Shown here one piece after another: positions 2-24,154 of a DNA stretch of 27,592 bases; position 1 is the stretch's first letter, and each line of letters begins with the position of its first letter. The DNA is taken from the IMG/VR virus record IMGVR_UViG_3300032304_000773, positions 1 through 27,592 of that record; one strand, 5' to 3'. This DNA comes from a virus. A program made the position numbers and the translations under genes. Below the pieces are notes generated by a model that did not search any database, was not told the DNA's origin, and worked only from the letters and a program-made list of their open reading frames with translations.

Positions 2-235
2 CCTACGAATACAGTTACGCCAACTGAAACGCCAACAAATACACCTACGAATACACCAACCAATACACCTACGAATACACCAACATCAACATTAACTCCA
101 ACCAATACACCTACTAATACGGTAACTCCAACGGAAACTCCAACTAACACGCCTACACCAACAATTACACCAACTGAAACACCAACAAATACTCCTACAC
201 CAACAAATACTCCTACACCAACACCATCACCTGAG
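2..235 (+). repeat. Tandem degenerate Thr-Pro coding repeats
   Basis: The first 235 bases are short degenerate tandem units (for example ACACCTACGAATACACCAAC, with ACN, CCN and AAT codons) coding for Thr-Pro-Thr-Asn runs. A shorter run of the same type lies at about 634-694. Copy number could change by slippage or recombination, altering the linker length without breaking the frame. Confidence 0.85.
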
Positions 236-697
236 CCAACGATATTCGAGGTATTTGCGTCGGTAGAATCTCCCATATCTCCGTTTATTGGTACTGCTTG
301 GTATGCTGTTAGTCAAACTAATGACCCAACCCAACCATCCCCAATTGGTTTAACTTGGAATCAGGTTGGAAATCCTCTATTAATTGATCAATGTAATACA
401 TCTGTCTCATTTGGTACATTTGGTACTTACAACCCAAACACAGTTTACTTCCAAATAAGAGATGTAAATGGAACGGTTTTATATGGTACGACAGGAAGTT
501 TCTTATTTTTTGATCCTTGTACTAATGTTTTATCGTCAGGATTTACTCAGAGTTTTTCTAATGGATCGACAGGTAATATACAGTTCAAATTAAAAGTAAT
601 TAACCCTATAACAACAACAGGGGCTCCCCAATTAACACCTACACCCACACCAACTAATACGACCACTCCAACACCTACACCAACACCTACATTTTAA
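2..697 (+). CDS. Pro/Thr-repeat fibre-like protein, 3' part (5' end outside window)
   Basis: An open frame enters from the left edge and ends at TAA 695-697, followed at once by a second TAA. Three blocks are visible. First come about 78 residues of almost pure Thr-Pro repeats with Asn, Glu, Ser or Val at the variable place (units such as PTNTPT and PTETPT). Next is a globular, beta-rich, Gly/Thr/Asn-rich domain of about 130 residues with two cysteines. Last is a second Thr-Pro run that ends the protein in PTPTF. Such linkers join domains in surface-exposed phage fibre or adhesin proteins, and the globular block may be a receptor-binding or decoration unit; that role is inference. No homologous family is recognised. 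It lies upstream of the polymerase and does not belong to that transcription unit. Confidence 0.7.
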
Positions 698-5066: not shown

Positions 5067-7205
5067 TTAACCAGTAATAATTTTTAGGATTTTGTTATTA
5101 AAGTAATTGGTCACCTCGTTAATTGAGTCTTCATATCCAAGTTCTTTTAGTTTGTTTTTGAAGTACTCAATTCTTGTTTTATAAAACTCAACCTCCTTAT
5201 CGGTGTCTCGTTTGATACCAGATTTAACGGGAACTTTTGGTTTTTCTTGTTTCATATCAAGTTTAAAGTTACTTTTAAGTGGCATCTCGTAGTAATAGAT
5301 ATAGAATGGTGGGAACTTATTTGGGTTACCTACCGTCAACATTTTATTAAAATCATTCCTGAACATAATATATCTGTTTGTCGATCTGTCAACATACATA
5401 ATCACATCAACATTCTCACCCTTATATTTGTTTTGATTGTGCCATGAAGAAACCTTAAAGTAGTAACCTCTATCACCACTATCGTAAAATTCAATATCTT
5501 CACCCATAAATGGTTTTACTTGAAAATAAATTGGATCTTGTTTTGGAAATTTAAGTACGATATCCTGACCTTTTTTTCTATCGTTAACATCACCCGAACA
5601 ATGTTCATAAAGTTCGTATTCAATTCCAGCCTTATCAGGATCTAAATTATAAACTTCTCGGATCGTTTTAATTGCGTATGTTTCATTTTCTTTACCGATA
5701 AGTATTGTACCTAAATTTAGTTTAACTAATCTTTCAGTATACATACCATCGTTAGAGAATAAATCACTAGCATTGTTTCTAATCCATGTTTTTAAATCTT
5801 CTTCCCCATTAGTCTCCTCCATCCATATTTTTTGGATTTCGTCTTTTACTCTACTATTTGTATCAAATCTATTAATGATCGACCATTGACTGGTTCCCCC
5901 ATTTTTTTTCTCAGAGTAATCACCACCTAAGATACCAACATCAGTTGAACACTTTTTGGTCTGTATTTGACCTAAACACCCATACTTATATTGTTTCCCA
6001 AAACAACCTTCATATTGTGAATTAACCAATTCCCTCATTTGTTTTGGTGTGTATGGGAATGAATTTTGATTGACCTTCTCAGTTAATATTTTTTTAACAT
6101 TAACATTTTCTTTTAAGGTTTTTTTCTTTGTTTTTGATTGATAAAGATCCTCAACGAATTCCCAATTTACATGATCCCAAAATTTAGAAATATATTCGTC
6201 TCTTTTGTTTTGGTACTTTAAATAATAAGCATGTTCCCATACATCAAGACCAAGAAGTGGATAACCCCCACCTTTAACAACATCCATTAATGGATTGTCT
6301 TGATTAGGTGTTGACATGATTTTTAATTTATTATCCTTACCTAAAACTAACCAAGCCCAACCAGAACCAAATCTTGTTTTGGCAACTTCGTTAAATTCTG
6401 TTTTAAGTTTTTTAATATTACCGAAATCGGATTTAATTTTTTTAGAGATCTCACCTTTAGGTATTTGTTTCTTTGGTGACAACATCTTCCAAAATAATGC
6501 GTGGTTAAAAGCACCACCACCATTATCTCTAACTTTATCGTCAAATTTACTTATGGACTTAACAATTTCTTCTAAATCCATATCACCATCTTTACCCTTT
6601 AAAGCGTTATTTAATTTCTTAACATAACCTTTATAGTGTTTGTTGTAATGAATGTCCATGGTTTTTGGATCAACAAAACTTCTTAGAGATGCGTATGAGT
6701 AAGGGAGTTTATCAATACCGATTTTTTTCATTTCGGTTAAAATATCTTTTCTAAGGTTATGAACCTCAACAAGTAATATTTGTTCGTTGATTAACTCTAT
6801 TTTTTTATTAATGACTTTAGACTCAAAAATTTGTTTGTCATGCTCAGGATATTCTTTTTCAAACATCTTCATTAGTTTTCCTGCTTCGGCATTTGCTTCG
6901 TCTTCGTTTTGACCACCAATGTCAGGACCATGTTCTCTGTCAAGTACGGTCATTTGATATTGGTGAACCCACTCATGTGCTAAGGTTCTTAAGATGTCCC
7001 TATTCATTCGACCTTTAGTAAGTACCTTTAATAAATTTTTATCTGATCTACTACCTGTGGTCATCCCACCAACTCTTTCGGGTAAGAAATGAATTCTAAA
7101 TTCACTATTAAGGGGAAAATGTTTTTGTAGGAATGTACAAAAATCTTCTACGAGTTCTTTGTTTTTTTTATAATCCTTATCAACATATGTTATTGAAACC
7201 TTCAT
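5067..7205 (-). CDS. Zincin metallopeptidase-like / Mn-Fe superoxide dismutase / nuclease-like fusion protein
   Basis: One uninterrupted 712-residue frame with three parts. (1) Residues 1-125 are a zincin-like domain with H77-E78-W79-V80-H81 and the downstream segment NEDEANAEAG (about 100-109), which could supply a third zinc ligand. (2) Residues 164-356 are a full Mn/Fe superoxide dismutase with all four metal ligands, H186, H235, D321 and H325; the signature DVWEHAYY and Gln302 in TPNQDNPLM favour the Mn type. (3) Residues 380-712 are unrecognised, with GQDIV (546-550) and FQVK (561-564) as in PD-(D/E)XK nucleases. A Lys-rich linker lies at 357-375. Domain 2 would convert superoxide to peroxide and oxygen. 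It stands between a helicase and a neck gene under a TATTTAT motif, so a late, perhaps virion-carried, protein is possible. There is no signal peptide. Confidence 0.85.
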   Translation of the reverse strand: MKVSITYVDKDYKKNKELVEDFCTFLQKHFPLNSEFRIHFLPERVGGMTTGSRSDKNLLKVLTKGRMNRDILRTLAHEWVHQYQMTVLDREHGPDIGGQNEDEANAEAGKLMKMFEKEYPEHDKQIFESKVINKKIELINEQILLVEVHNLRKDILTEMKKIGIDKLPYSYASLRSFVDPKTMDIHYNKHYKGYVKKLNNALKGKDGDMDLEEIVKSISKFDDKVRDNGGGAFNHALFWKMLSPKKQIPKGEISKKIKSDFGNIKKLKTEFNEVAKTRFGSGWAWLVLGKDNKLKIMSTPNQDNPLMDVVKGGGYPLLGLDVWEHAYYLKYQNKRDEYISKFWDHVNWEFVEDLYQSKTKKKTLKENVNVKKILTEKVNQNSFPYTPKQMRELVNSQYEGCFGKQYKYGCLGQIQTKKCSTDVGILGGDYSEKKNGGTSQWSIINRFDTNSRVKDEIQKIWMEETNGEEDLKTWIRNNASDLFSNDGMYTERLVKLNLGTILIGKENETYAIKTIREVYNLDPDKAGIEYELYEHCSGDVNDRKKGQDIVLKFPKQDPIYFQVKPFMGEDIEFYDSGDRGYYFKVSSWHNQNKYKGENVDVIMYVDRSTNRYIMFRNDFNKMLTVGNPNKFPPFYIYYYEMPLKSNFKLDMKQEKPKVPVKSGIKRDTDKEVEFYKTRIEYFKNKLKELGYEDSINEVTNYFNNKILKIITG

Positions 7206-10884: not shown

Positions 10885-13800
10885 ATGGCATCAAACAGCA
10901 AAGTATTTGTTTCGCCAGGTGTGTACACCTCTGAAGTTGACCTAAGTTTTGTAGCACAAAGCGTTGGGGTAACAACATTGGGTATTGCTGGAGAGACACT
11001 GATAGGTCCAGCCTTCGAGCCTATCTTTATTAGAAACTATGACGAGTTTACTACTTATTTTGGTGGGACATCACCTGAAAAGTTTGTAAACACTCAAATA
11101 CCTAAATACGAGGCAGGATATATCGCGAAAGCATATCTTCAACAATCTAATCAATTATTTGTAACTAGAATCTTAGGTTTATCAGGTTATGACGCTGGAC
11201 CATCTTGGTCTATTAGAACAGTAGCAAATGTCGATCCAACAACTATCGATCTTTACTGTTTAAGTGCCGCAACCTCATCTGCCACTTGTGACACAACTTG
11301 TGTTCAGTTTAAAGAAGAAAATTACATTGTGACTTTCACAGGTTGTACTGATAATATAACTAGCGTTGGATTTGGTACTTTCCCAAGTAATATACAAAGT
11401 ATTTTAACTGAACAATACCAATTATATAATGGATCAACAAGTACATTAGAAGAAAATTTCCAATCTTTAGTATTTGATATGATCACTGCGGCTTCACCAT
11501 CAACGGCTGAAGATCAAGACATTTACTACTTTGGTTCTGTACCTTCAACCGAATACAACTCTTTTGAAGGGTTAGGATATACCGCATCAACAAATGTTTA
11601 CGATGTACCTGAGGTTTCATTAGACTTTAATGATTTAACAGACTCTTTAAATGATCCTTGGTATTACTCTTTGTTTGACAATATCGGTAACTACGAATAT
11701 ACAGGAACATCTTTCGCTTCTTATGTGACAGGTTTAACTCAAGTATCAAGTTCAAACACTTGTTCTTCATTCTATAACTTTAGTGTAAGTGGTTACCCCG
11801 CAAACATTAATTACACAAATTTAACAATCGATGTTTGTTTACCAACATCATTCTCAGGATCTCTAAGTAATATTGTTGCTAACTTCAGTGCTTGTACATC
11901 GGCAATTACAGTATCATCAGTTACTCAAGTTAGTGGTGTTACATCTAATAATTTTTCTTCAGGTAGTTTAACTTATACTGTAGTTTCTCAAGATGGTTCT
12001 ATCACAACTAATTGGACCGTATCTGTAGTTATTAGTGACCCTTGTAATCCATGTGCTTACACAGGTAACACTGGTACTCAAAACAGCGGTGGTATTACAA
12101 CTTGTTATTCAGGATCAATCAACTTAAGTATGTATTTCTTTACAGGTACTTCTTATTCAGACTATGACAATGTGGTAGTTAGTACCCTAAGATCAAGAGG
12201 TATTGCGACTTACGCACCTAACTCAAGAAATCCGGCATGGGAAGTTACAGGTTTAACTGATGTTTCTTTAACAATGTCAGGTCAGTACCTTAATGTATTA
12301 AAAAACCCATACTCACCATTCGCAGTTAATGTTACTAACAAAGACGGACAGAACTACACATTTGAGACATCACTTACTCTTTCTGACCCTAGTTACATAT
12401 CTAAAGTATTTGGTATTACCAATTTCCAAAAACCAAGATTAGAAACTCCTTTATTCTGTGAAGAAGCGTACCAATCATTCTTAAACTTCGGTTATAACAA
12501 AGGTTATATTAGAGGTTTAAATCCAAACCTAATCGCGTTAGACTCAGCACAAAGTGGAGATGTTAACTCAATTGGTTGGTATTTGGATAGATGGCAAACA
12601 CCAAACTCACCTTGGGTTGTATCAGAATTAAGAGGTAACAAAGTATTTGACCTATTCAGATTCTACACAGTATCCGATGGTGATGCCGCTAACACATTGA
12701 TTAAAATATCAATCGCCGACATTTCATTCGCAAATTCAACATTTACAGTGTTGGTTAGAGATTACTTTGATACAGATGCTAACCCTGTTGTTCTTGAGAA
12801 ATTTACTAATTGTAGTATGAATCCAGCACAGAATAACTTTATCGGTGTTAAGATTGGTACATTAGATGGTGAATATACTTTGAACTCTAAATTAGTAATG
12901 GTTGAGATCAACGAAGATGCTCCTGTAGATGCACTTCCTTGTGGATTTAACGGATTTAACTTTAGAAATTACGCAGGTGCTAACTCACCATTCCCAATTA
13001 TTAAAGCGAAATACGACTTCCCTGGTGAAGTTATTTACAACCCACCATTTGGTTTAGCAACAGGAACAAGTAACGCGGCTACAAGTCCAGGTGATAACAT
13101 TAGAAGAACTTACCTTGGTATATCAAATACAGTTGGTTATGATCCTGCTTACTACGAATATGTAGGTAAGAGAAATCCAAATGATAGTTGTAGTATTGAA
13201 TCGATTCCTTTTAACTACAGATCATCAGGTTTCCACATGGATAAAAACGCAAGTGGTATCACAATCGGAAATGAGTTCTCAACAGCAGGTGAACCAAGAT
13301 TCGTTGTAGGTTCTGACTCGTTCACAACTGACCCTGATAACCCAACAAATGTATACTACAGATTGTTCGCTCGTAAATTTACATTCTTAGTACAAGGTGG
13401 ATTTGACGGATGGGATATCTACAGAGAATGGAGAACTAACACTAATGAATATGTAATCGGTAGAACTGGATTCTTACGAGGAGCATGTCCATCATCAAGA
13501 TATCCAAACGCAACAGGTTGGGGAGCATTCAAACAAATCGCAATCAGTGACGGTACAACTGACTTCGCAAATACTGACTACTACGCTTACTTATTAGGTT
13601 ACCAAACATTTGCTAACCCTGAAGCGGTAAACATCAATGTATTTGTATCTCCAGGTATTGACACAATGAACAACGATAACTTAGTTGAAGATGTTGTTAA
13701 CATTATTGAGTACAACAGAGCGGATTCACTTTATGTGGTTACAACTGCTGACTACAATATGTATACGCCAACAACAACAGGTGCTGACTTCTTCATCTAC

Positions 13801-14463
13801 CCAACAGAAGCGGTAGACATCTTAGAAGCAACAGGACTTGACTCTAACTACACCGCAACTTACTACCCTTGGGTATTGACTCGTGATGTTGAGAATAACA
13901 CTCAAATTTACATTCCAGCAACGGCTGAAGTAACAAGAAACTTGGCATTAACCGATAACATTGCTTACCCTTGGTTCGCAGCGGCAGGTTACACTCGTGG
14001 TATTGTAAACGCAGTTAAGGCTCGTAAGAAGTTGACTCAAGAAGATAGAGACATTCTTTACACAGGAAGAATTAACCCAATCGCAACCTTCGCAGATGTA
14101 GGTACGGTAATTTGGGGTAACAAAACTCTTCAAGTTAGAGAAAGTGCTCTTGATAGAATCAATGTTAGAAGATTATTACTACAGGCTCGTAAATTGATTT
14201 CAGCAGTATCCGCAAGATTATTGTTTGAACAAAACGACCAACAAGTAAGACAAGACTTCTTAAACGCGGTGAATCCAATCTTAGATGCTATCAGAAGAGA
14301 TAGAGGTTTGTATGACTTTAGAGTAACGGTTTCAAGTGACCCTGAAGACATCGATAGAAACCAAATGACAGGTAAGATTTACATCAAACCAACTCGTTCA
14401 TTAGAATTTATCGACATTACATTCTATATCACTCCAACAGGAGCATCGTTTGATGATGTTTAA
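10885..14463 (+). CDS. Contractile tail sheath protein, T4 gp18-like, with large insertion
   Basis: 1192 residues, nearly twice T4 gp18 (659). The N-terminus (SPGVYTSEVD, then a TLGIAGETLIGPAFEP strand and an LFVTRILG strand at about 91-98) and the C-terminus (about 830-1192: YPWFAAAGYTRGIV, LTQEDRDILYTGRINPIATF, RRLLLQARKLI, and the terminal strands IYIKPTRSLEFIDITFYI) are classic sheath. The terminal strands exchange between subunits in contracting sheaths. The middle (about 100-700) is extra. It contains many cysteines between 125 and 410 (including CNPC at 387-390) and an Ig-like stretch at about 312-382 with a GSITTNWTVSV end, as found in bacterial surface Ig-like repeats. The insertion should face outwards. 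The gene begins the main tail cluster under its own TATTTAT motif and ends in a strong terminator. Confidence 0.92.
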   Translation: MASNSKVFVSPGVYTSEVDLSFVAQSVGVTTLGIAGETLIGPAFEPIFIRNYDEFTTYFGGTSPEKFVNTQIPKYEAGYIAKAYLQQSNQLFVTRILGLSGYDAGPSWSIRTVANVDPTTIDLYCLSAATSSATCDTTCVQFKEENYIVTFTGCTDNITSVGFGTFPSNIQSILTEQYQLYNGSTSTLEENFQSLVFDMITAASPSTAEDQDIYYFGSVPSTEYNSFEGLGYTASTNVYDVPEVSLDFNDLTDSLNDPWYYSLFDNIGNYEYTGTSFASYVTGLTQVSSSNTCSSFYNFSVSGYPANINYTNLTIDVCLPTSFSGSLSNIVANFSACTSAITVSSVTQVSGVTSNNFSSGSLTYTVVSQDGSITTNWTVSVVISDPCNPCAYTGNTGTQNSGGITTCYSGSINLSMYFFTGTSYSDYDNVVVSTLRSRGIATYAPNSRNPAWEVTGLTDVSLTMSGQYLNVLKNPYSPFAVNVTNKDGQNYTFETSLTLSDPSYISKVFGITNFQKPRLETPLFCEEAYQSFLNFGYNKGYIRGLNPNLIALDSAQSGDVNSIGWYLDRWQTPNSPWVVSELRGNKVFDLFRFYTVSDGDAANTLIKISIADISFANSTFTVLVRDYFDTDANPVVLEKFTNCSMNPAQNNFIGVKIGTLDGEYTLNSKLVMVEINEDAPVDALPCGFNGFNFRNYAGANSPFPIIKAKYDFPGEVIYNPPFGLATGTSNAATSPGDNIRRTYLGISNTVGYDPAYYEYVGKRNPNDSCSIESIPFNYRSSGFHMDKNASGITIGNEFSTAGEPRFVVGSDSFTTDPDNPTNVYYRLFARKFTFLVQGGFDGWDIYREWRTNTNEYVIGRTGFLRGACPSSRYPNATGWGAFKQIAISDGTTDFANTDYYAYLLGYQTFANPEAVNINVFVSPGIDTMNNDNLVEDVVNIIEYNRADSLYVVTTADYNMYTPTTTGADFFIYPTEAVDILEATGLDSNYTATYYPWVLTRDVENNTQIYIPATAEVTRNLALTDNIAYPWFAAAGYTRGIVNAVKARKKLTQEDRDILYTGRINPIATFADVGTVIWGNKTLQVRESALDRINVRRLLLQARKLISAVSARLLFEQNDQQVRQDFLNAVNPILDAIRRDRGLYDFRVTVSSDPEDIDRNQMTGKIYIKPTRSLEFIDITFYITPTGASFDDV

Positions 14464-14531: not shown

Positions 14532-15359
14532 ATGAATTATAAGAAAGTTGTTAGACAGATTATATCTGAGATTATTAATGATCAGATGAAACCCACGATG
14601 AAATACTATGCTTTTGACTGGGACGATAATCTTATGTACATGCCGACTAAAATTTATCTTAAAGATGAAGACGGAAAAGTTGTTGGTATGTCAACAGAAG
14701 ATTTTGCGGAATATAGAACTGAAATAGGTAAGGAACCTTTCGAATATGAGGGACATACTATTGTTGGTTTCGATGACGAAGCGTTTAGAGATTTCAAAGT
14801 ACCGGGAGATAAAGGTTTCATTAGAGATGCGATGACAGCACCAACAGGACCAGCATGGAGTGATTTTGTTGAGGCAATCAATAATGGGTCAATATTTGCG
14901 ATTGTTACAGCAAGAGGACACACACCTACCGTTCTTAAAAACGCAATTTACAATTTAATTAAGAAAAACAAACACGGAATTAGTGAAAAAGAATTGGTTA
15001 AAAACTTAAAAAAGTATAGAGAACTTGCCGATGAAGATGATTTGTCTGACGATGAATTAGTTAGAGTGTATTTAGACATGAATAAATACCACCCTGTAAC
15101 TTTCGGTGAAGGATCTGCTGCCAATCCAGAGCAATTAAAAGTTGATGCTATGAAAGAATTTATGACTTATGTAAATAATTTATCTAGAAGGCTGCAAGAA
15201 AAGGCATTTATGAAAAACAAGATAAGTAATTACTTTGTACCATATGTAGGTTTTTCAGATGACGACTTAAGGAATGTTCAAGCAATGAAGAAACACTTTG
15301 ATGATGAATCAGGATTAGATATTTATCATACTGGAGGAGGAAATAAAACTAAATATTAA
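14532..15359 (+). CDS. HAD-superfamily phosphatase-like protein
   Basis: 275 residues. HAD motif I is FDWDDNL (nucleophile D29, acid/base D31), motif II is the TARGH threonine (IVTARGHT, after a hydrophobic strand), a Lys-rich helix follows, and motif IV is GFSDDDLRN (D243, D244). These are the residues of Mg-dependent phosphoryl transfer; the substrate cannot be read from sequence, and a nucleotide or DNA/RNA 3'-phosphate is only a possibility by analogy with T4 polynucleotide phosphatase. A long acidic and Lys-rich helical insert lies between motifs II and IV. The first 18 residues, MNYKKVVRQIISEIINDQ, form an amphipathic helix not part of the HAD fold. Met19 or Met23 are alternative starts. 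The gene sits as a separate unit between sheath and tube, with a terminator before it and a motif at its start. Confidence 0.8.
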   Translation: MNYKKVVRQIISEIINDQMKPTMKYYAFDWDDNLMYMPTKIYLKDEDGKVVGMSTEDFAEYRTEIGKEPFEYEGHTIVGFDDEAFRDFKVPGDKGFIRDAMTAPTGPAWSDFVEAINNGSIFAIVTARGHTPTVLKNAIYNLIKKNKHGISEKELVKNLKKYRELADEDDLSDDELVRVYLDMNKYHPVTFGEGSAANPEQLKVDAMKEFMTYVNNLSRRLQEKAFMKNKISNYFVPYVGFSDDDLRNVQAMKKHFDDESGLDIYHTGGGNKTKY

Positions 15360-15489: not shown

Positions 15490-15978
15490 ATGGCTGATTT
15501 GTTAATGAAAATGCCGATTCCCTACGAACCGAAAAGGGAGAACCGATGGATCTTGAGATTTCCTTCATCACTTGGTATTAACGAGTGGTATGTTGAAACA
15601 ACCTCTAGACCAAAACTTACTATCAATACAACTAAGATCGACTTTTTGAATACTTCAACATATGTTGCTGGCCGTTTTGAATGGGGTGAACTTCCTGTTA
15701 CTTTCCGTGATCCAATTGGACCTTCAGCGTCTCAAGCGGTAATGGAATGGATTCGTTTATGTGCTGAGTCAGTTACTGGTCGTATGGGTTACGCTGCGGG
15801 TTACAAAAAGAATGTTGACCTTGAAATGTTAGACCCAACTGGTGTAGTTGTTGAGAAATGGATTTTAGAAGGTACATATCTAACAGGATACGATGGGGGA
15901 GCATTAAATTACTCACAAGATGGTATCGCTAAAATCTCGGCAAACATGAGAATGGATCGTTGTATTTTAGTATACTGA
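15490..15978 (+). CDS. Tail tube protein, T4 gp19-like
   Basis: 162 residues, very close to T4 gp19 (163). It starts with the tube-typical pattern RENRWILRFPSSLGI, then VETTSRPKLTI. The segment FEWGELPVTFRDPIGPSASQ is the strand-loop characteristic of T4-type tubes, followed by a helix (VMEWIRLCAES) and a C-terminal strand set with LEGTYLTGYDGGALNYSQDG and ISANMRMDRCIL. Hexamers of this protein stack into the inner tail tube through which DNA passes. It lies right of the sheath, as in T4, but separated by the HAD gene. It has its own TATTTAT promoter candidate and its own terminator, which fits a high-copy protein. Confidence 0.92.
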   Translation: MADLLMKMPIPYEPKRENRWILRFPSSLGINEWYVETTSRPKLTINTTKIDFLNTSTYVAGRFEWGELPVTFRDPIGPSASQAVMEWIRLCAESVTGRMGYAAGYKKNVDLEMLDPTGVVVEKWILEGTYLTGYDGGALNYSQDGIAKISANMRMDRCILVY

Positions 15979-16060: not shown

Positions 16061-16825
16061 ATGGAACAAGATGTTTATCAAGCAGGTCAAGAGGGTTTTA
16101 ATTTACCACATGATGTTGTATCGTTACCTTCGGAAGGTATTTTTTACAAAAGTAAAAAAAGAAGTGTAAAAGTTGGTTATCTTACTGCGGCCGACGAAAA
16201 CATTATTTCCTCAATGGACAGAAAAAAAACTATTAATGAGTCCATAGTACTACCCTTACTTAGAAATCGTCTGTATGAGACTGATTTGAGACCTGAGGAA
16301 CTTTTGGAGGGAGATACTGAAGCGATCTTAATCTTTTTAAGAAACACCGCATTTGGTCCTGAATATAAATTAACCGCTGTTGATCCTGTTTCTTTGGAGA
16401 CATTTAATTACAACTTAGATTTAAGCGAGTTAAATATTATTAAACCAAAAGTTAATCCTAATCAAGAAGGGTTGTTTGAGGTTGAGTTACCCATGTCAAA
16501 ACAAAGAGTTAAACTTAAACTTTTATCGATGGGTGATAAGTTGGAAATTGAGAGAATTATTAGTTCATATCCCGCAGAAAGAAACGCACCTGTTGTTACA
16601 ACAAGATTAGTTAAAAATATTGTTGAATTGGGTGGATCTACGGATCGTACTAAAATTGCTACATTTGTGGAACAAATGCCAATCCAAGACTCGAAGTTCA
16701 TTAGAAACTTTCTTAATGAGAACGAACCAAGGTTAGACCTATCAAGAGAAGTTATAGCCCCGTCAGGAGAAAGAGTAATGGTGAACATTGCTTTTGGGGT
16801 GGAATTTTTTCGGCCTTTCTTCTGA
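16061..16825 (+). CDS. Tail assembly chaperone / baseplate-hub assembly protein (gp26-like), zero frame
   Basis: 254 residues. The start region LPSEGIFYKSKKRSVKVGYLT (about 22-42), an acidic turn and SSMDRKK, then ILPLLRNRLYETDLRPEELLEGDTEAILIFLR, is the pattern of the T4 gp26-type and gpG-like chaperones that coat the tape measure before tube assembly. It sits between tube and tape measure, exactly where such chaperones lie. The frame ends in FFRPFF at TGA 16823-16825. A second frame continues without a stop to 16967, so a longer 301-residue product by frameshift near residue 250 is likely. There is no clean TATTTAT upstream (only TATTTTTAT just after the terminator), so a weaker promoter or read-through from the tube gene is possible. 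Confidence 0.65.
   Translation: MEQDVYQAGQEGFNLPHDVVSLPSEGIFYKSKKRSVKVGYLTAADENIISSMDRKKTINESIVLPLLRNRLYETDLRPEELLEGDTEAILIFLRNTAFGPEYKLTAVDPVSLETFNYNLDLSELNIIKPKVNPNQEGLFEVELPMSKQRVKLKLLSMGDKLEIERIISSYPAERNAPVVTTRLVKNIVELGGSTDRTKIATFVEQMPIQDSKFIRNFLNENEPRLDLSREVIAPSGERVMVNIAFGVEFFRPFF
16805..16813 (+). other. Candidate programmed frameshift site TTT TTT CGG
   Basis: Zero-frame codons UUU UUU CGG. Phe-tRNA can re-pair from UUU to UUC by a +1 shift, or from UUU to UUU by a -2 shift on the six-T run; both reach the same second frame. CGG should be a slow codon in this AT-rich genome, favouring a pause. The site is a close match in form to the known influenza PA-X shift site (UUU CGU). Confidence 0.55.
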
Positions 16826-16991: not shown

Positions 16992-18824
16992 ATGGCTACT
17001 ATTGACGAATTATCAAAAAAAGTTTCAGAATTAGAATCTCAAGTCAAATCATTAGGGGGTGAGAATAAAACTTTACAGGATCAACTTAGTAAGAATAAGG
17101 TTAGTGAAACCTATCAGACGGGAGATTTATACATGAAATCACAATCCGAAGCAATGGCCAATATTGGAAGTATGGCCAAAAACTTAGGTGCTGCTTTTAG
17201 CCAAGGAATGCTTGGTGCTGTCGAAGGTATTAATTTGTTGGAAGAACAAGGGGTACAAATTCAAAATTCGTTAGGTGTCTCAAGACAGAGAATGGAGGAA
17301 TTTAAAACTCTAATTGCTGATGTTGGACCTGTACTTGCGTCTATGGGTATTAGTGAAGATCAATTTGCTTCCACAATTATTTCTGTAACAGACAAGTTAG
17401 GTGGTGTGGCAACATTATCCTCAGAGGCGATAACTAATATGGCTGCGGCATCAAAAGTTACTGGTCAAGAGGTTGGTACATTGGCTAAAAACTTTAGAGA
17501 GGTTGGTATATCAATGTATGATGTTGGTGAGACAATGAAAGATGTTGCGGACTACGCCAAAAATGTTGGTGTACCTGTTAAAGCGGTTGCTGAAGGTGTG
17601 GTTAGTAATTTAGGTAAGATTAACCTTTATAACTTTGATGGTGGTGTACAAGGATTAACTAAAATGGCCACTCAATCGGCAAGATTAGGTGTTGAAATGG
17701 GTAGTGTGTTTAGAATTGCTGAAGACCTATTCTCCCCTGAAAAGGCAATTGATTATGCGGCATCATTACAAAGATTAGGTGTGACAGCAAATGGATTATT
17801 AGATCCGTTAAGAGCGATGGACATGGCTCAAAATGACCCTGCCGCACTCCAAGAAGAGATTGTTAACTTAACTAAGGACTTTGTTAGATTCAGTAGTGAA
17901 AATAATAAGTTTGAAATTATGCCAGGTGCTCAAAGGCGTTTAAGGGAAGTATCAAGTGCGTTAGGTATTGACGCAGCGGAGTTTGCCAAAATGGGTATAC
18001 AAGCTGCGGAGTTTGATAGAAAGTTGTCACAGATTAAATTACCAAGTTTTGCTGACGACAAAGAAACTAAAGAATTAATTGCTTCAATGTCACAAATTAA
18101 AGATGGTGTTGCTACGGTAACGATTAAAAATATACAAACAGGTGAGGTTGAGTTAAAACAACCTGACCAATTAACACCTGAAGATATTGAAAGTTTAAAA
18201 ACCTCAAGTGAAGAAAGTAGTAAATCTATAGAACAACTTGCGATTGATCAATTGGATCAGTTAAAATTCCTTAATAGTCAGATAGATTCTGTTAGACTTG
18301 CGGGTCAGTTAGGTACCGCATCTTTAGGTCCTGTACAAAGATTGGCCGAAATGGCAGCACAAGCAACAAGAGGTGGTACCAGAGCGATAACGACCGAATA
18401 CACTTCTGCTAAAACAAGAGAAACTTTTACACCGGCAACAAGAGCAGTGGAAGACGCAATTATTTCTGCGGTTAGAGACAATAAGATGGGGTTAGAACAA
18501 GCAATGACAGACTTCCAAAGTGGATTGAGTGTAATTAAAGATAATACGGTTAAAATGGCTGAGGGTATTGTTACTAAGTTTGATGCCGCAATGAAAAATT
18601 CAACAAAAGGATATGACCCTGTAATACAAAGATTAGAAGCTAAAAATGATATTAATCTTAATCTGAGTGTTGATGTTAAGGGAGGTCAAAATGTTCAGAT
18701 AAGTGATAGTGAATTGGCTAAAAAATTAAAAGGTTTAATGGAAACCGACACTCAGATACAAGAAACAATAAAGAAAGCAGCAGGATCAACTCAATTAGGT
18801 ATGAACCCTAATAAACCAGGATAA
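16992..18824 (+). CDS. Tail tape measure protein
   Basis: 610 residues, close to T4 gp29 (590). A heptad-rich coiled coil occupies residues 1-35 (IDELSKKVSELESQVKSL). The body is mostly helical and Ala/Gly/Met/Gln-rich, with no signal peptide. The N-terminal part (50-110) contains the small-residue stretch ANIGSMAKNLGAAFSQGM, and residues 110-330 carry the segment LASMGISEDQFASTI and the motif LRAMDMAQNDPAALQEEIV, as seen in tape measures. Such proteins set tail length by spanning the tube lumen. About 0.15 nm per helical residue predicts a tail near 90 nm. It follows the chaperone with its frameshift extension and precedes the large tube-cap/baseplate gene, as expected for a tape measure. 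Confidence 0.8.
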   Translation: MATIDELSKKVSELESQVKSLGGENKTLQDQLSKNKVSETYQTGDLYMKSQSEAMANIGSMAKNLGAAFSQGMLGAVEGINLLEEQGVQIQNSLGVSRQRMEEFKTLIADVGPVLASMGISEDQFASTIISVTDKLGGVATLSSEAITNMAAASKVTGQEVGTLAKNFREVGISMYDVGETMKDVADYAKNVGVPVKAVAEGVVSNLGKINLYNFDGGVQGLTKMATQSARLGVEMGSVFRIAEDLFSPEKAIDYAASLQRLGVTANGLLDPLRAMDMAQNDPAALQEEIVNLTKDFVRFSSENNKFEIMPGAQRRLREVSSALGIDAAEFAKMGIQAAEFDRKLSQIKLPSFADDKETKELIASMSQIKDGVATVTIKNIQTGEVELKQPDQLTPEDIESLKTSSEESSKSIEQLAIDQLDQLKFLNSQIDSVRLAGQLGTASLGPVQRLAEMAAQATRGGTRAITTEYTSAKTRETFTPATRAVEDAIISAVRDNKMGLEQAMTDFQSGLSVIKDNTVKMAEGIVTKFDAAMKNSTKGYDPVIQRLEAKNDINLNLSVDVKGGQNVQISDSELAKKLKGLMETDTQIQETIKKAAGSTQLGMNPNKPG

Positions 18825-18843: not shown

Positions 18844-21800
18844 ATGGCAGAGAGTACACTTTCATTTGGTAATTCAGAGTTTTTTAGAAAAAATCTTTTA
18901 ACTAAAAATTTAGAACCGTATTCGGTTCAAGGGGTATTATCCGCTAGACAACCAGCGGTTAATTACGAAACTAGTTTATCGGTTTATTCTGTTATAGACT
19001 CACCAAATACATTTGTGTCTACTAATACATTTGCGAATGCTCAGTATCCGTTGAATGAATTTGGACCTGAGGGTGGATTTGGAGTACCTATTGGTCTTAA
19101 CGCATTATCATCGTCACAACTACCAAACGGGTCAAATCAAGGACCATATAATCAAAATTCGGCACAGATTGACTTATTAAATGAGTTCTTCATTGATGCT
19201 GCTTACGTTAAAAACATTTTTGGACCTGAGGGTGGATATAAAGATTTGGTTATTATTACTGATATTCAGAACAATAATAGTATCTATCAACCATATTGGG
19301 ACCCTTCTTATTTTGTTAGTTCATCATATTCAACATTTAATATCGTTTTCCAAAACAATCCGTTAGGTACTGATGGGTTATTATCGCAAGATACTTATTT
19401 AGCGAAGATTGGGGCCGCTCAACTTAAAGGTTTATTTGAAGAGAGGATTGCCGCTGAGATTGCTCAAGCAACGGTAGGTTCTATTAACTTAGATACAATA
19501 ACCAATCCATTTACCGCTTCTCAATTAGCAACAGGACAACAACCTTTCTTTGATCGAAATTGGAAAATTTCACAACCTGAAAACATTGTACTTGCTACAG
19601 TATCTTTGGCGAATAGAGTATCGGGAACATATTTTCCGGCATCATTTATACCTGGTGATTATTTTGAGGAGATTAATCCTTACACTAATCCGAAACAGAC
19701 GAGTAATGCTTTAAATATTGCGAACAATTTAACGGGTGGTTTAATATCACCAATATTAAATAAGACAAGAAACCCTTCTGAAGTATTTGTTGCCAACACA
19801 GGTAATGGACAAAAATCAGTTTTATTTGCGAGTTTAGATTATAACAAATATAGACCGGCATATAATAGAGGGCTTATCGCAGGAGCGGCTCAAGCGTTAA
19901 ATAACTTTTTTGATCAAGACACAACATCACAAGGTGGGTATTATGTAGGTAGTCCGAATGCGGAACCTAGTATGATTGATTCACCTGCTAACCAAGTTCC
20001 TGTGAATGAATTTGGTGAACAACAAGCAACCATAGTATACGGTCCACAAGAATTGGCTATTCTATATGAGGGTAATCAGGGTAGAATACAAAATGGATTA
20101 GCGGGTAGATCTTACACTAATGATGGTGGTATAACCGGACAATTTGTTTGGACATCACCTAAGTATAAGGATAATGCCGGATGGAAAGTTGGTGTTGGTG
20201 GTAAGGTAACAAACTACGATCAAGAATTCCCAACATTACAAAGTGATTACAACAAGTATCAATCAACAGATATTGATTTTAAACCGGGGTCTATATTAGA
20301 CAACACCCAAAGATTAGTGGAATCTGCGGATCAGGTACAAGGTCAAACAAGATTAAAACATGTTGGTACGGCAATCAATCAAGTCTCTAAGGTGTTCAAC
20401 GACGGATATAAAGAGATTACTAAAGGGTCTCAAGTACTTTCATATACCGATCAGACTTCGGGTGCTGAGGCTGGTATTGAGTATTGTAGAGTATTCACTA
20501 AAGACACACCATACTTCTTCTATAATGATTTACAGAAGACTGATGGTATTACTCAGAATGGTAGAAAATTTGGTTTCTCCATCTTAGATAATACTTACAA
20601 CTTAAACATCGCACCATTAAAAAACCCTGGATCAACAAATATTGTTAATGGTAAGGTTAAGAAATATATGTTCTCAATTGAGAACTTGGCTTGGAGAACT
20701 TCCGATAGACCAGGATTTACTTACGATGATTTACCTGTTTGTGAAAAAGGACCTAATGGTGGTAGAATTATGTGGTTCCCACCATATAACTTAAAATTCA
20801 ACGATGACTCCACACCAAACTTTAATGAAACTACTTTTATTGGTAGATCAGAACCTATATATACTTACAAGAATACGAGTAGGTCAGGTTCGATAAGTTG
20901 GAGTATTATTGTGGATCACCCGTCAATGTTAAATACAATTATAGAAAAACAATTGGCGAATATTCCTAAAGAAAGAGTTGATTCAATTATGGACTCGTTC
21001 TTTGCGGGATGTGTTAAATATGATATCTATGAATTGGCAATTAAATTTAATACGGTACCAACTAGTGATCTATTCACATACCAAGAAATTTTAAATAACC
21101 CAAGACTAACACCTGAAGAGTTAACACAAACCTTAACTGAAATACCTGTAAACCCTGAAGGTGATACGCCAAAATCTGCAACAGGTGTGAATGCTATTCC
21201 TAATGAAACAGCAACCAATGGTAATACAAAGGTACAAGATCCTGTTGTTACTAATCTTGATACTTATGTGGGTTATGGATTCTATTTTGATAATGACTAT
21301 CCGGATCCGAGAACTAGAAACACAACTGCGAGTCAACCGTACAATGTGTGGTATAATCAATACACAGCACCTGCGGTTAAAGATGTTTATTTAGGTAATA
21401 CATCACCGGCAGTTGTGTATGTTGGTAACAAACAATTTAAAAGAGACGGAATTAGTAACTTTTACGATCAAGTAATACAAGGTAACTTCTCGGTTATCCA
21501 AACGGATTTAATGACAAAGATTAAAGAGGTATTAACTAATAAAGGTAGTGTTGAAATTGATTTAGTTGGATCTGCTTCGGCACCAAATTCGCCTGAATAT
21601 AATACAAACTTATCTGAAAGAAGGATTGATTCTGTTATACAATGGTTTAATTCACAAACATTGGCTGATGGTACCACATTAGGTCAATTAGAAAAAGATG
21701 GTAAAGTTAAATATAATAGAACACCTAGAGGTGAAAATATTGTTATACCTAAAAATAGTACAACCGCAAGTGGTACGACGGGAATTACGGTAACCACATC

Positions 21801-23829
21801 TGGTGGTACTGAGATTTTAAATGATGAAATTAATTGTAATGTTAATATTAGACAAAATGCCGTTAACGGACCTGTAACTTCTGTATCTCAAAAATATAGT
21901 ATTCCGGCAATGGCTTGTAGACGAGTTGCGATTAAAAAAATTACGATTACTGAAACGCCACCACCACCACCTGAAGTTAAGCCGGATCCTGTTGTTATTT
22001 CAGAACCATCGACCCCAAAAACCGGTGTTACTCAAACAATCAAACCGCAAGGTAGAGTTGATGTAATCACTAAAATTAAAGAAGGTATTTCCAAAAAGAT
22101 ATTAAGAAACTTATTTACTGAGTGTGACTACTTCCAAGTAATTGAGAAAGAGAACCCAATGATTTACGATACGATTAAAGATAAAATTAAGTACTTTAAT
22201 CCTGCGTTTCACTCAATGACACCTGAAGGTCTAAACTCTAGATTGACCTTCTTAAATCAATGTATGAGACCTGGTCAGTCAATACCTGTAATAGATGTTG
22301 ATGGTAAACCAAAATATAACGATGCGTTGAACACATCATTTGGAGCACCTCCTATTTTGGTGTTAAGAGTTGGTGACTTCTATAATACTAAGATAGTGCC
22401 TAAATCATTAACGATTGCTTATGATCCGTTACAATTAGATTTAAATCCTGAAGGTATTGGAGTACAACCAATGGTTGCTAATATCACATTAGGGTTTAGT
22501 TTTATTGGTGGTCATGGATTAGCGGGTCCAGTACAAGAATTACAAAACGCACTTTCATTCAACTACTACGCTAATACAGAAATTTATGATGAAAGAGCCA
22601 CAGCAACTGAGGATACAACGGCACTTGATAAGTATGTTGTTGAGAAGATCACGGGAGGTATAACTCCAATAAACTCGGCTCAAGCGGCAGCAGTTCAAAA
22701 TGTTGACCCAAAAAGAGGTCAAGGAACCGTAGGTACTCAGTTAATTAATGAACTAGAATATAATCCTGTTTTAATTGAATTACAGGGACAATTAAAATCT
22801 TATTTTGATACATACTTTAATGGGTTACTTAGTGTTCAGTCACAGGCTAATTACGGGATACTCCAAATAATGAATAACAAACGAAAATATCAAAAAGGTG
22901 ATTTGGGTGGTCAAGAAGTTATTATTTATGGTAAACCTTATGATTACGAAACCATAATTGATGATTTAGTTAATCAAATAATAAGTGATATTGATGATCA
23001 AACGGATCCGATATCAGCAGCATTAAAGGATGACCCCGCAAAATTCCCAAATAAAGCGTTAAGGGAAGTTAAAGATAGACTTAAAGTATTAGTTGGAACC
23101 CAAAAAGTTGAATTAAGAAATATTGTAAATGATGGATTTGCTGACTTGGTAGATTCTCAGGAGGAGTTAATTTATACATTTAGAAAATTAAATGTTGTTA
23201 ATGGAAAACTTGACGGATATATTGATACAAATAATGGGGCAATAACTTTTGATTTAAGTGGTGATACATTCTTTGCTGATTCATCAAATACTCAAAGTTT
23301 ACAACATGTGATTTCACTTGAAGTACCTGAATATTTAACAAAGTTAAATACATTCATGAGTGATACTTTAATCACAAAACCATCTAATTTTAGTACCACA
23401 GACTATACAATAACCGATCCATTTACCGGTAATTTTATTACAATACAGGAGAACCGATTCTATGTGTGTAACTCAAAAATTTTCTTAGATGACGGTAAGT
23501 TTAAAGATTTTGTAAACGCATTAATCACATTAGAAGAAGTTAAAAAAATACCTGAAATGGTAAAAAAAGTTGAAGAAATTTGTGAAGGATTCAAAGTAAT
23601 ATGTAAAGCAGAGTTTGATGCTGAAGTTAAAAACTTCGACACTGCAAAATCAGACCCAATTTACACTCAACTAACAACGCTTACTTTATCTATAATACCT
23701 GGTAAGGTTGGGTATGTAAGTCCAGCACCTAACGATGTACAACTTAAACAACAAAAGTTAAAAGACCTTTACGCAAATCAAAACCTAAACACTACCGATT
23801 CATTTGATGGTAAAGTAACACTAAATTAA
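18844..23829 (+). CDS. Giant baseplate / tail-tube-cap protein with OmpA-like domain
   Basis: 1661 residues. A beta-rich N-terminal region (1-630) contains the twice-repeated FGPEGG. The central segment (about 640-720) has IMWFPPYNL (642-650) and a later IGRSEPIYTYKNTSRSGS-type stretch, as in the tube-initiator proteins gp48/gp54 of contractile tails. A further block with FIGGHGLAGPVQELQNALS (from 1220) supports this. Between them, residues about 808-1030 form an OmpA-like domain: FYFDNDYPDP, then DLVGSAS (906-912), N920-x2-L923-S924-x2-R927, GENI, and CRRVAIKKI at the end. A Pro-rich hinge (PPPPPE near 1039) follows. The C-terminal 300 residues are helical and Lys/Asp-rich. It would cap the tube start and perhaps contact peptidoglycan. 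It lies after the tape measure and one base before the gp53-like gene. Confidence 0.65.
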   Translation: MAESTLSFGNSEFFRKNLLTKNLEPYSVQGVLSARQPAVNYETSLSVYSVIDSPNTFVSTNTFANAQYPLNEFGPEGGFGVPIGLNALSSSQLPNGSNQGPYNQNSAQIDLLNEFFIDAAYVKNIFGPEGGYKDLVIITDIQNNNSIYQPYWDPSYFVSSSYSTFNIVFQNNPLGTDGLLSQDTYLAKIGAAQLKGLFEERIAAEIAQATVGSINLDTITNPFTASQLATGQQPFFDRNWKISQPENIVLATVSLANRVSGTYFPASFIPGDYFEEINPYTNPKQTSNALNIANNLTGGLISPILNKTRNPSEVFVANTGNGQKSVLFASLDYNKYRPAYNRGLIAGAAQALNNFFDQDTTSQGGYYVGSPNAEPSMIDSPANQVPVNEFGEQQATIVYGPQELAILYEGNQGRIQNGLAGRSYTNDGGITGQFVWTSPKYKDNAGWKVGVGGKVTNYDQEFPTLQSDYNKYQSTDIDFKPGSILDNTQRLVESADQVQGQTRLKHVGTAINQVSKVFNDGYKEITKGSQVLSYTDQTSGAEAGIEYCRVFTKDTPYFFYNDLQKTDGITQNGRKFGFSILDNTYNLNIAPLKNPGSTNIVNGKVKKYMFSIENLAWRTSDRPGFTYDDLPVCEKGPNGGRIMWFPPYNLKFNDDSTPNFNETTFIGRSEPIYTYKNTSRSGSISWSIIVDHPSMLNTIIEKQLANIPKERVDSIMDSFFAGCVKYDIYELAIKFNTVPTSDLFTYQEILNNPRLTPEELTQTLTEIPVNPEGDTPKSATGVNAIPNETATNGNTKVQDPVVTNLDTYVGYGFYFDNDYPDPRTRNTTASQPYNVWYNQYTAPAVKDVYLGNTSPAVVYVGNKQFKRDGISNFYDQVIQGNFSVIQTDLMTKIKEVLTNKGSVEIDLVGSASAPNSPEYNTNLSERRIDSVIQWFNSQTLADGTTLGQLEKDGKVKYNRTPRGENIVIPKNSTTASGTTGITVTTSGGTEILNDEINCNVNIRQNAVNGPVTSVSQKYSIPAMACRRVAIKKITITETPPPPPEVKPDPVVISEPSTPKTGVTQTIKPQGRVDVITKIKEGISKKILRNLFTECDYFQVIEKENPMIYDTIKDKIKYFNPAFHSMTPEGLNSRLTFLNQCMRPGQSIPVIDVDGKPKYNDALNTSFGAPPILVLRVGDFYNTKIVPKSLTIAYDPLQLDLNPEGIGVQPMVANITLGFSFIGGHGLAGPVQELQNALSFNYYANTEIYDERATATEDTTALDKYVVEKITGGITPINSAQAAAVQNVDPKRGQGTVGTQLINELEYNPVLIELQGQLKSYFDTYFNGLLSVQSQANYGILQIMNNKRKYQKGDLGGQEVIIYGKPYDYETIIDDLVNQIISDIDDQTDPISAALKDDPAKFPNKALREVKDRLKVLVGTQKVELRNIVNDGFADLVDSQEELIYTFRKLNVVNGKLDGYIDTNNGAITFDLSGDTFFADSSNTQSLQHVISLEVPEYLTKLNTFMSDTLITKPSNFSTTDYTITDPFTGNFITIQENRFYVCNSKIFLDDGKFKDFVNALITLEEVKKIPEMVKKVEEICEGFKVICKAEFDAEVKNFDTAKSDPIYTQLTTLTLSIIPGKVGYVSPAPNDVQLKQQKLKDLYANQNLNTTDSFDGKVTLN

Positions 23830-23830
23830 G

Positions 23831-24154
23831 ATGGCAAATCAATATTATAATAGATACCAAGACTTTATTATTAACGGACAACAAACGGTTGTTCCTTATT
23901 TGGTATTACCTTCTAAAAGTTCAGATAAGAGATTTATCTATAAAGTAGGTCAATCTCGTTTAGATAAAATATCACAACAATATTATGGGTCACCTTTATT
24001 TGGTTGGTTGATACAACAAGCAAACCCTGAATATAGTGGTTTTGAATTTGTGATACCCGATGGGGCTGTATTGACTATACCATTTCCGTTAGTAACTTCA
24101 TTACAGGACTACAAAAACTCCTTAGATAATTACTTATTCTATTATGGCAGATAA
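23831..24154 (+). CDS. Baseplate wedge protein, T4 gp53-like (LysM fold)
   Basis: 107 residues (T4 gp53 is 196). The LysM-like fold covers residues 36-86: an IYKVGQSRLDKISQQYYGSP strand-helix, FGWLIQQANPEYS, and the terminal VIPDGAVLTIP strand. The 'rlD.is...Yg.p..wW.i...N' pattern is shared by gp53 and tail protein X. By family it holds baseplate wedges together; in LysM proteins it may bind glycan. The tail SLQDYKNSLDNYLFYYGR is helical. It starts one base after the giant gene's stop and its last 11 bases overlap the next gene's start, so the three genes form one tight operon. Confidence 0.8.
   Translation: MANQYYNRYQDFIINGQQTVVPYLVLPSKSSDKRFIYKVGQSRLDKISQQYYGSPLFGWLIQQANPEYSGFEFVIPDGAVLTIPFPLVTSLQDYKNSLDNYLFYYGR

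Follow-up and report, generated by a model that had tools for sequence, protein, structure and literature searches.

Why should a phage carry an OmpA-like domain inside a protein of its tail tip, and does that domain keep a pocket with which the cell wall could be bound? The question is raised by a virus record of 27,592 bases (G+C content of 34.5%), analyzed here in full and referred to as the window. An earlier note, made from the sequence alone, had proposed a peptidoglycan-binding domain of this type within a baseplate protein, based on four short motifs in the order and spacing of the OmpA C-terminal domain. All four are found in the 1661-residue protein where they were said to be (Table 1). 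The proposed span of 21270-21935 agrees with the motif positions but falls short of the full domain, which is larger (about residues 797-1045); the last motif, CRRVAIKKI, ends seven bases beyond it.

Table 1. Features of the contractile-tail gene block in the window and of the OmpA-like domain.
Feature	Position	Strand	Basis or remarks
Tail sheath	10885..14463	+	PHROG 23, E 3.3e-54
HAD-like ORF (YYAFDWDDNLMYMPT)	14532-15359	+	Between sheath and tube
Tail tube protein (gp19-like)	15490..15978	+	PHROG 4542, E 1.9e-20
T4 gp26-like baseplate protein	16061..16825	+	Pfam T4_baseplate, 24.9 bits (cut-off 24.5); PHROG 150
610-aa ORF	16992-18824	+	Between gp26-like gene and 1661-aa ORF
1661-aa tube-initiator-like baseplate protein with OmpA domain	18844..23829	+	ORF; fold match of flanks; at least 118 other distinct relatives
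Putative first half of tube-like fold	20641..20955	+	Residues 600-704; aligned to PVC 6j0n_b and AFP 6rao_G; local pLDDT about 37-72
OmpA-like domain	21232..21978	+	Residues 797-1045; AlphaFold2 model, VIA-align, Pfam OmpA in relatives
FYFDNDYPDP	21280..21309	+	Residues 813-822; first strand and the beginning of the long loop that follows
DLVGSAS	21559-21579	+	Residues 906-912
GSAS	21568..21579	+	Residues 909-912; Ser912 at the place of the diaminopimelate-binding Asp
YNTNLSERR	21598..21624	+	Residues 919-927; Tyr919, Asn920, Leu923 and Arg927 at diaminopimelate-contact positions
NTNLSERR	21601-21624	+	Residues 920-927
Cys998	21835..21837	+	First of the invariant Cys pair
CRRVAIKKI	21916..21942	+	Residues 1025-1033; last strand, carries Cys1025
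Putative second half of tube-like fold	22357..22515	+	Residues 1172-1224; same PVC and AFP alignments; local pLDDT about 41-75
gp53-like baseplate wedge / LysM-type small protein	23831..24154	+	Next gene; PHROG 7145 baseplate wedge subunit, E 3.1e-6
Long ORF	from 24144, off window end	+	After gp53/LysM-like gene

An AlphaFold2 model of residues 797-1045 was built on 42 relatives (pLDDT 87.2, pTM 0.87). Its elements (strand 16-18, helix 71-102, strand 106-115, helix 121-141, strand 159-168 and strand 231-241) give the beta-alpha-beta-alpha-beta-(bulge)-beta fold of the OmpA superfamily (PF00691), the layout on which the earlier proposal had been staked. The best structural match by VIA-align is PorE (6top_B; Z 9.6, 136 residues, rmsd 3.2), followed by Acinetobacter baumannii OmpA (3td3_A; Z 9.5, 120 residues, rmsd 2.7). 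The A. baumannii entries 3td3, 3td4 and 3td5 score Z 9.2-9.5, the matches to OmpA and PorE range overall over Z 9.2-9.6, rmsd 2.7-3.2 and 119-136 residues, and the PDB matches listed are structures of the OmpA, Pal, MotB, TagL or PorE type. Foldseek E-values for the same model are weak (best 4.8e-3). At the sequence level, likeness to OmpA is borne out in the relatives, as Pfam OmpA is matched by 32 of 42 with an E-value of 0.01 or lower (best 3.2e-6), and by the family profile, which finds OmpA/Pal chains in the PDB at E-values down to 3.4e-6; the window sequence alone remains below the Pfam cut-off (E 0.037; 14.8 bits against 27.2). A profile of six Bacteroidota domains, described below, gives the window protein 58.2 bits, and 2000 shuffled versions of the domain reach 8.8 at most. 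This shuffle control, together with the Pfam matches in relatives and the family-profile matches in the PDB, places the resemblance above chance. Fortuitous likeness of short motifs, with no OmpA domain present, could appeal to the sub-threshold Pfam score and the weak Foldseek values, but has a negligible probability, as it is already refuted by profiles that match in both directions, the shuffle control and a VIA-align list made up of OmpA-type folds.

As modeled, residues 797-1045 form an OmpA-fold domain. The phage domain has in common with the OmpA/Pal/MotB/TagL family the fold, the order and spacing of the motifs, and the pocket Arg, Asn, Leu and Tyr. It differs in having a serine for the pocket aspartate and a much longer loop after the first strand, and in not being located at the end of an envelope protein.

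PorE, an Asp-type relative, was crystallized with a stem peptide, which is bound by the side chains of Asp576, Asn584 and Arg591, with Phe541, Tyr583 and Ile587 around it (PMC7192894). In the phage protein these positions correspond by register to Ser912, Asn920, Arg927, Phe815, Tyr919 and Leu923, respectively. Their conservation was assessed over 119 distinct IMG/VR sequences, 117 of which cover the pocket site. The diaminopimelate-binding arginine, noted earlier as kept, is present in 117/117 (Arg927), and the reported replacement of the aspartate extends to the whole set, with Ser in 116/117 and Asn in 1/117. The residue that binds the diaminopimelate amine in peptidoglycan-binding OmpA domains is hence absent from the phage domain, and Ser or Asn takes its place in every relative read, four distant ones included. 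Tyr919 and Asn920 are invariant (117/117), position 923 is Leu or Ile in 117/117, and Phe815 and Pro820 are kept in all 118 relatives with a residue there. Five of the six PorE side-chain contact positions keep the family residue type (F815, Y919, N920, L/I923 and R927), and the 15 invariant columns out of 248 include four of the six (hypergeometric p 1.2e-4). Few residues of the domain are as well conserved as those of the pocket; the mean column identity of the domain is 36%. The spacing between Ser912 and Arg927 is 15 residues, the same as between the Asp-Arg pairs of PorE (Asp576/Arg591; PMC7192894) and TagL (Asp486/Arg501; PMC8253398). This pattern of conservation supports a binding pocket, short of proof, as the fold may also keep these residues. 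Within the close set, the domain diverges most in the single relative with GITN instead of GSAS (L063:5361-6005), which shares 24% identity with the window.

The loop after the first strand contains about 50 residues between the model strand 16-18 and helix 71-102, with conserved N817, D818, P820, Y837 and Y840. Cys998 and Cys1025, each a cysteine in 116/116 sequences, are both placed in the bulge that precedes the last strand; the C-R-x-V of CRRVAIKKI is invariant. Escherichia coli OmpA has a disulfide in this bulge (PMC7192894), and Cys998 and Cys1025 may likewise form one.

The core of the 1661-residue protein gave no named tail family in sequence searches against PHROGs, Pfam and PDB profiles, and the pointer to its identity comes from fold comparison only. 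A model of residues 540-1300 is poor outside the OmpA domain (mean pLDDT 55). Its two segments flanking the domain (600-704 and 1172-1224), taken together and passing over the OmpA domain, match baseplate chains that we take to be tube initiators, namely those of PVC (Z 9.2), AFP (8.8), Streptomyces CIS (8.2), P1 (8.1), diffocin (7.8) and Anabaena CIS (7.6). The alignments to PVC and AFP span model residues 61 to 685; for PVC, AFP, Streptomyces CIS, P1 and Anabaena CIS the rmsd is 4.1-5.2 over 120-131 residues. The matches are of moderate strength at a local pLDDT of about 37-75. The description as a baseplate protein stands insofar as this appears to be a tail-tip protein, and is refined to a probable tube initiator (hub) in which the OmpA domain separates the halves of the tube-like fold. 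Based on the model, we assign it to the tube initiators of contractile tails with moderate confidence.

The gene is located among contractile-tail genes, as expected of tube initiators of the Afp7/Pvc7/Alg7/Mu gp43 type. The order sheath, HAD-like ORF, tube, gp26-like, 610 aa, 1661 aa, gp53-like and 1149 aa is found in 18 of the 19 close relatives checked, the contig of the remaining one stopping at the 1661-residue gene; gene order in distant relatives is less complete. The HAD-like ORF lies between sheath and tube in all 19, and in the window has no Pfam match at E<=0.01. Elsewhere in the window, a 712-residue ORF (5067-7205, minus strand) contains a complete Fe/Mn superoxide dismutase mid-protein (Pfam N- and C-domains, E 1.3e-19 and 2.2e-40) and a zincin-like HEWVH motif in its N-terminal part. 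An ORF open at its 5' end (2-697, plus strand) has long Thr-Pro repeats (TPTNTPTNT) followed by a further part, with no Pfam match. Counts of TATTTAT, which recurs before genes, do not exceed chance in the window (18 against an expected 17.8).

Tube initiators with a LysM domain have been described in AlgoCIS (Alg7) and Mu (gp43), where this domain touches the wedges in the assembled baseplate (PMC11915804, PMC8894135). These proteins and their AFP and PVC counterparts likewise combine a tube-like fold with a domain of peptidoglycan-binding fold, next to hub and wedge. In the phage protein, however, the OmpA domain lies inside the tube-like fold rather than attached after it, and a LysM-like protein is separately encoded next door. 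Other phage-encoded OmpA-like domains are known by annotation from Cellulophaga phage phi17:2 (R9ZWT8) and virus sp. ctML55; these proteins are short and stand-alone, give a very weak structural match, and are not known as tail parts. Searches of the open-access literature turned up no phage tail protein described as having an OmpA fold.

The bacterial kin of the domain were sought with the phage profile in 198 genomes of Bacteroidota, the phylum of a Paludibacteraceae bin that contains a distant relative. Seven long matches were obtained in six genomes (E 2e-19 to 2e-21), while other OmpA domains score 2e-8 or weaker. The strong matches read are TPR-PD40-OmpA-like proteins (loci L192-L197). 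One of them, compared with Pfam, has PD40 and TPR, and two compared with NCBIfam match the PorE and CHU_0125 models, both below the cut-offs. Their OmpA domains match over most of the phage domain and also have Ser at the place of the Asp, with the Arg kept; we refer to them as Ser-type domains. The phage profile gives them 67-73 bits, compared with at most 34 for other Bacteroidota OmpA domains, and in the reverse search the profile of six Ser-type domains, which scores the window as given above, reaches at most 31 bits on other Bacteroidota OmpA domains. In both directions the match includes the YFDND-x-PDPR segment of the phage domain. Shared motifs are YFDND-x-P-x-P, FF-x2-V/L, G-x-(A/T)-S-P, YN-x2-L-x2-RR and an RRVEI-like last strand, and in a tree of the central 102 columns the phage and Ser-type bacterial domains are joined with an SH-aLRT of 94. 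The bacterial domain ends a TPR-propeller protein and has no Cys pair, whereas the phage domain is a tail-protein insert with two invariant cysteines. PorE of Porphyromonas gingivalis itself has Asp, unlike the Ser-type phage and bacterial domains.

The Ser-type PorE-like domains, whose two-way profile match stands above that of other Bacteroidota OmpA domains, are the closest bacterial relatives found. By these sequence comparisons, they and the phage domain have a common origin. A phage-specific loss of the aspartate is ruled out by the Ser-type bacterial domains. Cyanobacteriota were considered as a source and rejected, with only 1 of 98 genomes matching at E<=1e-5 (best 3.1e-6). The bacterial character of the domain suggests transfer from bacteria to phage; the phages may have taken over a host component for handling the wall at entry. 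PorE/CHU_0125-like proteins of Bacteroidota are associated with type IX secretion and outer-membrane integrity. Loss of CHU_0125, an Asp-type relative, results in outer-membrane damage (PMC5891637).

Relatives are encoded by at least 599 confirmed IMG/VR stretches, on contigs of up to 304 kb. A tblastn search of 50,697 phage records with the whole protein, the domain and three more distant homologues gave no match. Four distant relatives occur in GTDB contigs, assigned to rumen Bacteroidales, Paludibacteraceae, a Mycoplasmatota bin and a Prochlorococcus single cell. In all four, the equivalent site is occupied by an OmpA-like stretch that keeps the Arg and has Ser or Asn for the Asp, detected by Pfam in two (E 1.1e-4 and 6.8e-4) and by motif only in the other two. 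Relatives lacking the insert were looked for, and none was found among the 117 covering the site or these four. In the tree, the four domains are on long branches outside the main phage clade and may represent separate insertions. The Prochlorococcus contig (L160, single cell AG-409-L21) contains a distant relative of the tail block and could derive from an infected cell or a co-sorted particle. None of the 15 larger genes in the window has AGGA, GGAG or GAGG within 25 bases before its start, and this lack of a Shine-Dalgarno core is as expected for Bacteroidota phages. Together with the closest kin in this phylum and two of the four GTDB bins (Bacteroidales and Paludibacteraceae), it indicates that the host is likely a member of the Bacteroidota.

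How might such a domain act? Six copies of the tube initiator would ring the tail hub, and upon sheath contraction, as in other myophages, hub and tube would cross the outer membrane and bring the OmpA domains into the periplasm. The pocket formed by Phe815, Ser912, Tyr919, Asn920, Leu923 and Arg927 would then most likely bind the peptidoglycan stem peptide through the carboxylate of diaminopimelate, with Ser912 standing in for Asp at the diaminopimelate amine, and this binding would anchor the tip of the tube at the cell wall or place it there. We favor wall binding because the pocket is kept and is shared with envelope proteins of the likely host phylum. We consider it about evenly balanced whether the domain is an accessory carried into the periplasm that binds the stem peptide of the wall. 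We found no binding data for Ser-type OmpA domains.

The loss of the Asp in every relative argues against wall binding and is equally what would be expected if the fold had been reused as a structural clamp, linking the tube initiator to the wedges or to the protein's own long terminal parts on the N and C sides. Such a clamp, whose Ser/Arg pocket would take up a carboxylate from a baseplate partner instead of peptidoglycan, is a real possibility, though one we rate clearly below an even chance. The presence of the domain in every relative covering the site, distant ones included, is as expected of a structural part, and the wedge-contacting LysM domains of the AlgoCIS and Mu tube initiators are a precedent for a wall-binding fold put to structural use. 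The separate gp53/LysM-like gene next to the 1661-residue gene also favors the clamp, and the pocket residues might be kept for folding. However, the Ser-type pocket is also kept in bacterial TPR-PD40-OmpA proteins, which have no baseplate, and its residues are conserved far above the domain mean.

An unlikely alternative is that the pocket recognizes, rather than anchors to, another Bacteroidota envelope ligand, one common to the PorE-like proteins of Ser type; this could be a modified stem peptide, a polysaccharide or a periplasmic protein. That phage and bacterial domains alike have Ser for Asp suggests that the ligand lacks the charged amine, and the conserved residues of the long loop could also be read in this way. 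On the other hand, there is no known candidate for such a ligand, and P. gingivalis, a member of the Bacteroidota, has meso-DAP (PMC7192894).

Returning to wall binding, Ser912 and Arg927 define a pocket, and the Ser-type PorE-like proteins provide a ready bacterial comparison for a direct binding test. The kinship of the domain points to Bacteroidota hosts. Knowledge of how contractile phages deal with the peptidoglycan between the outer and inner membranes comes mainly from lysozyme-type spikes. The present phage lineage, uncultured and very common, appears to have a non-enzymatic wall-binding fold within the tube initiator itself. We tentatively suggest, at somewhat less than an even chance, that these large myophages dock the tube tip at the host peptidoglycan through a Ser-type anchoring domain that they share with Bacteroidota, which would be an undescribed kind of virion anchor.
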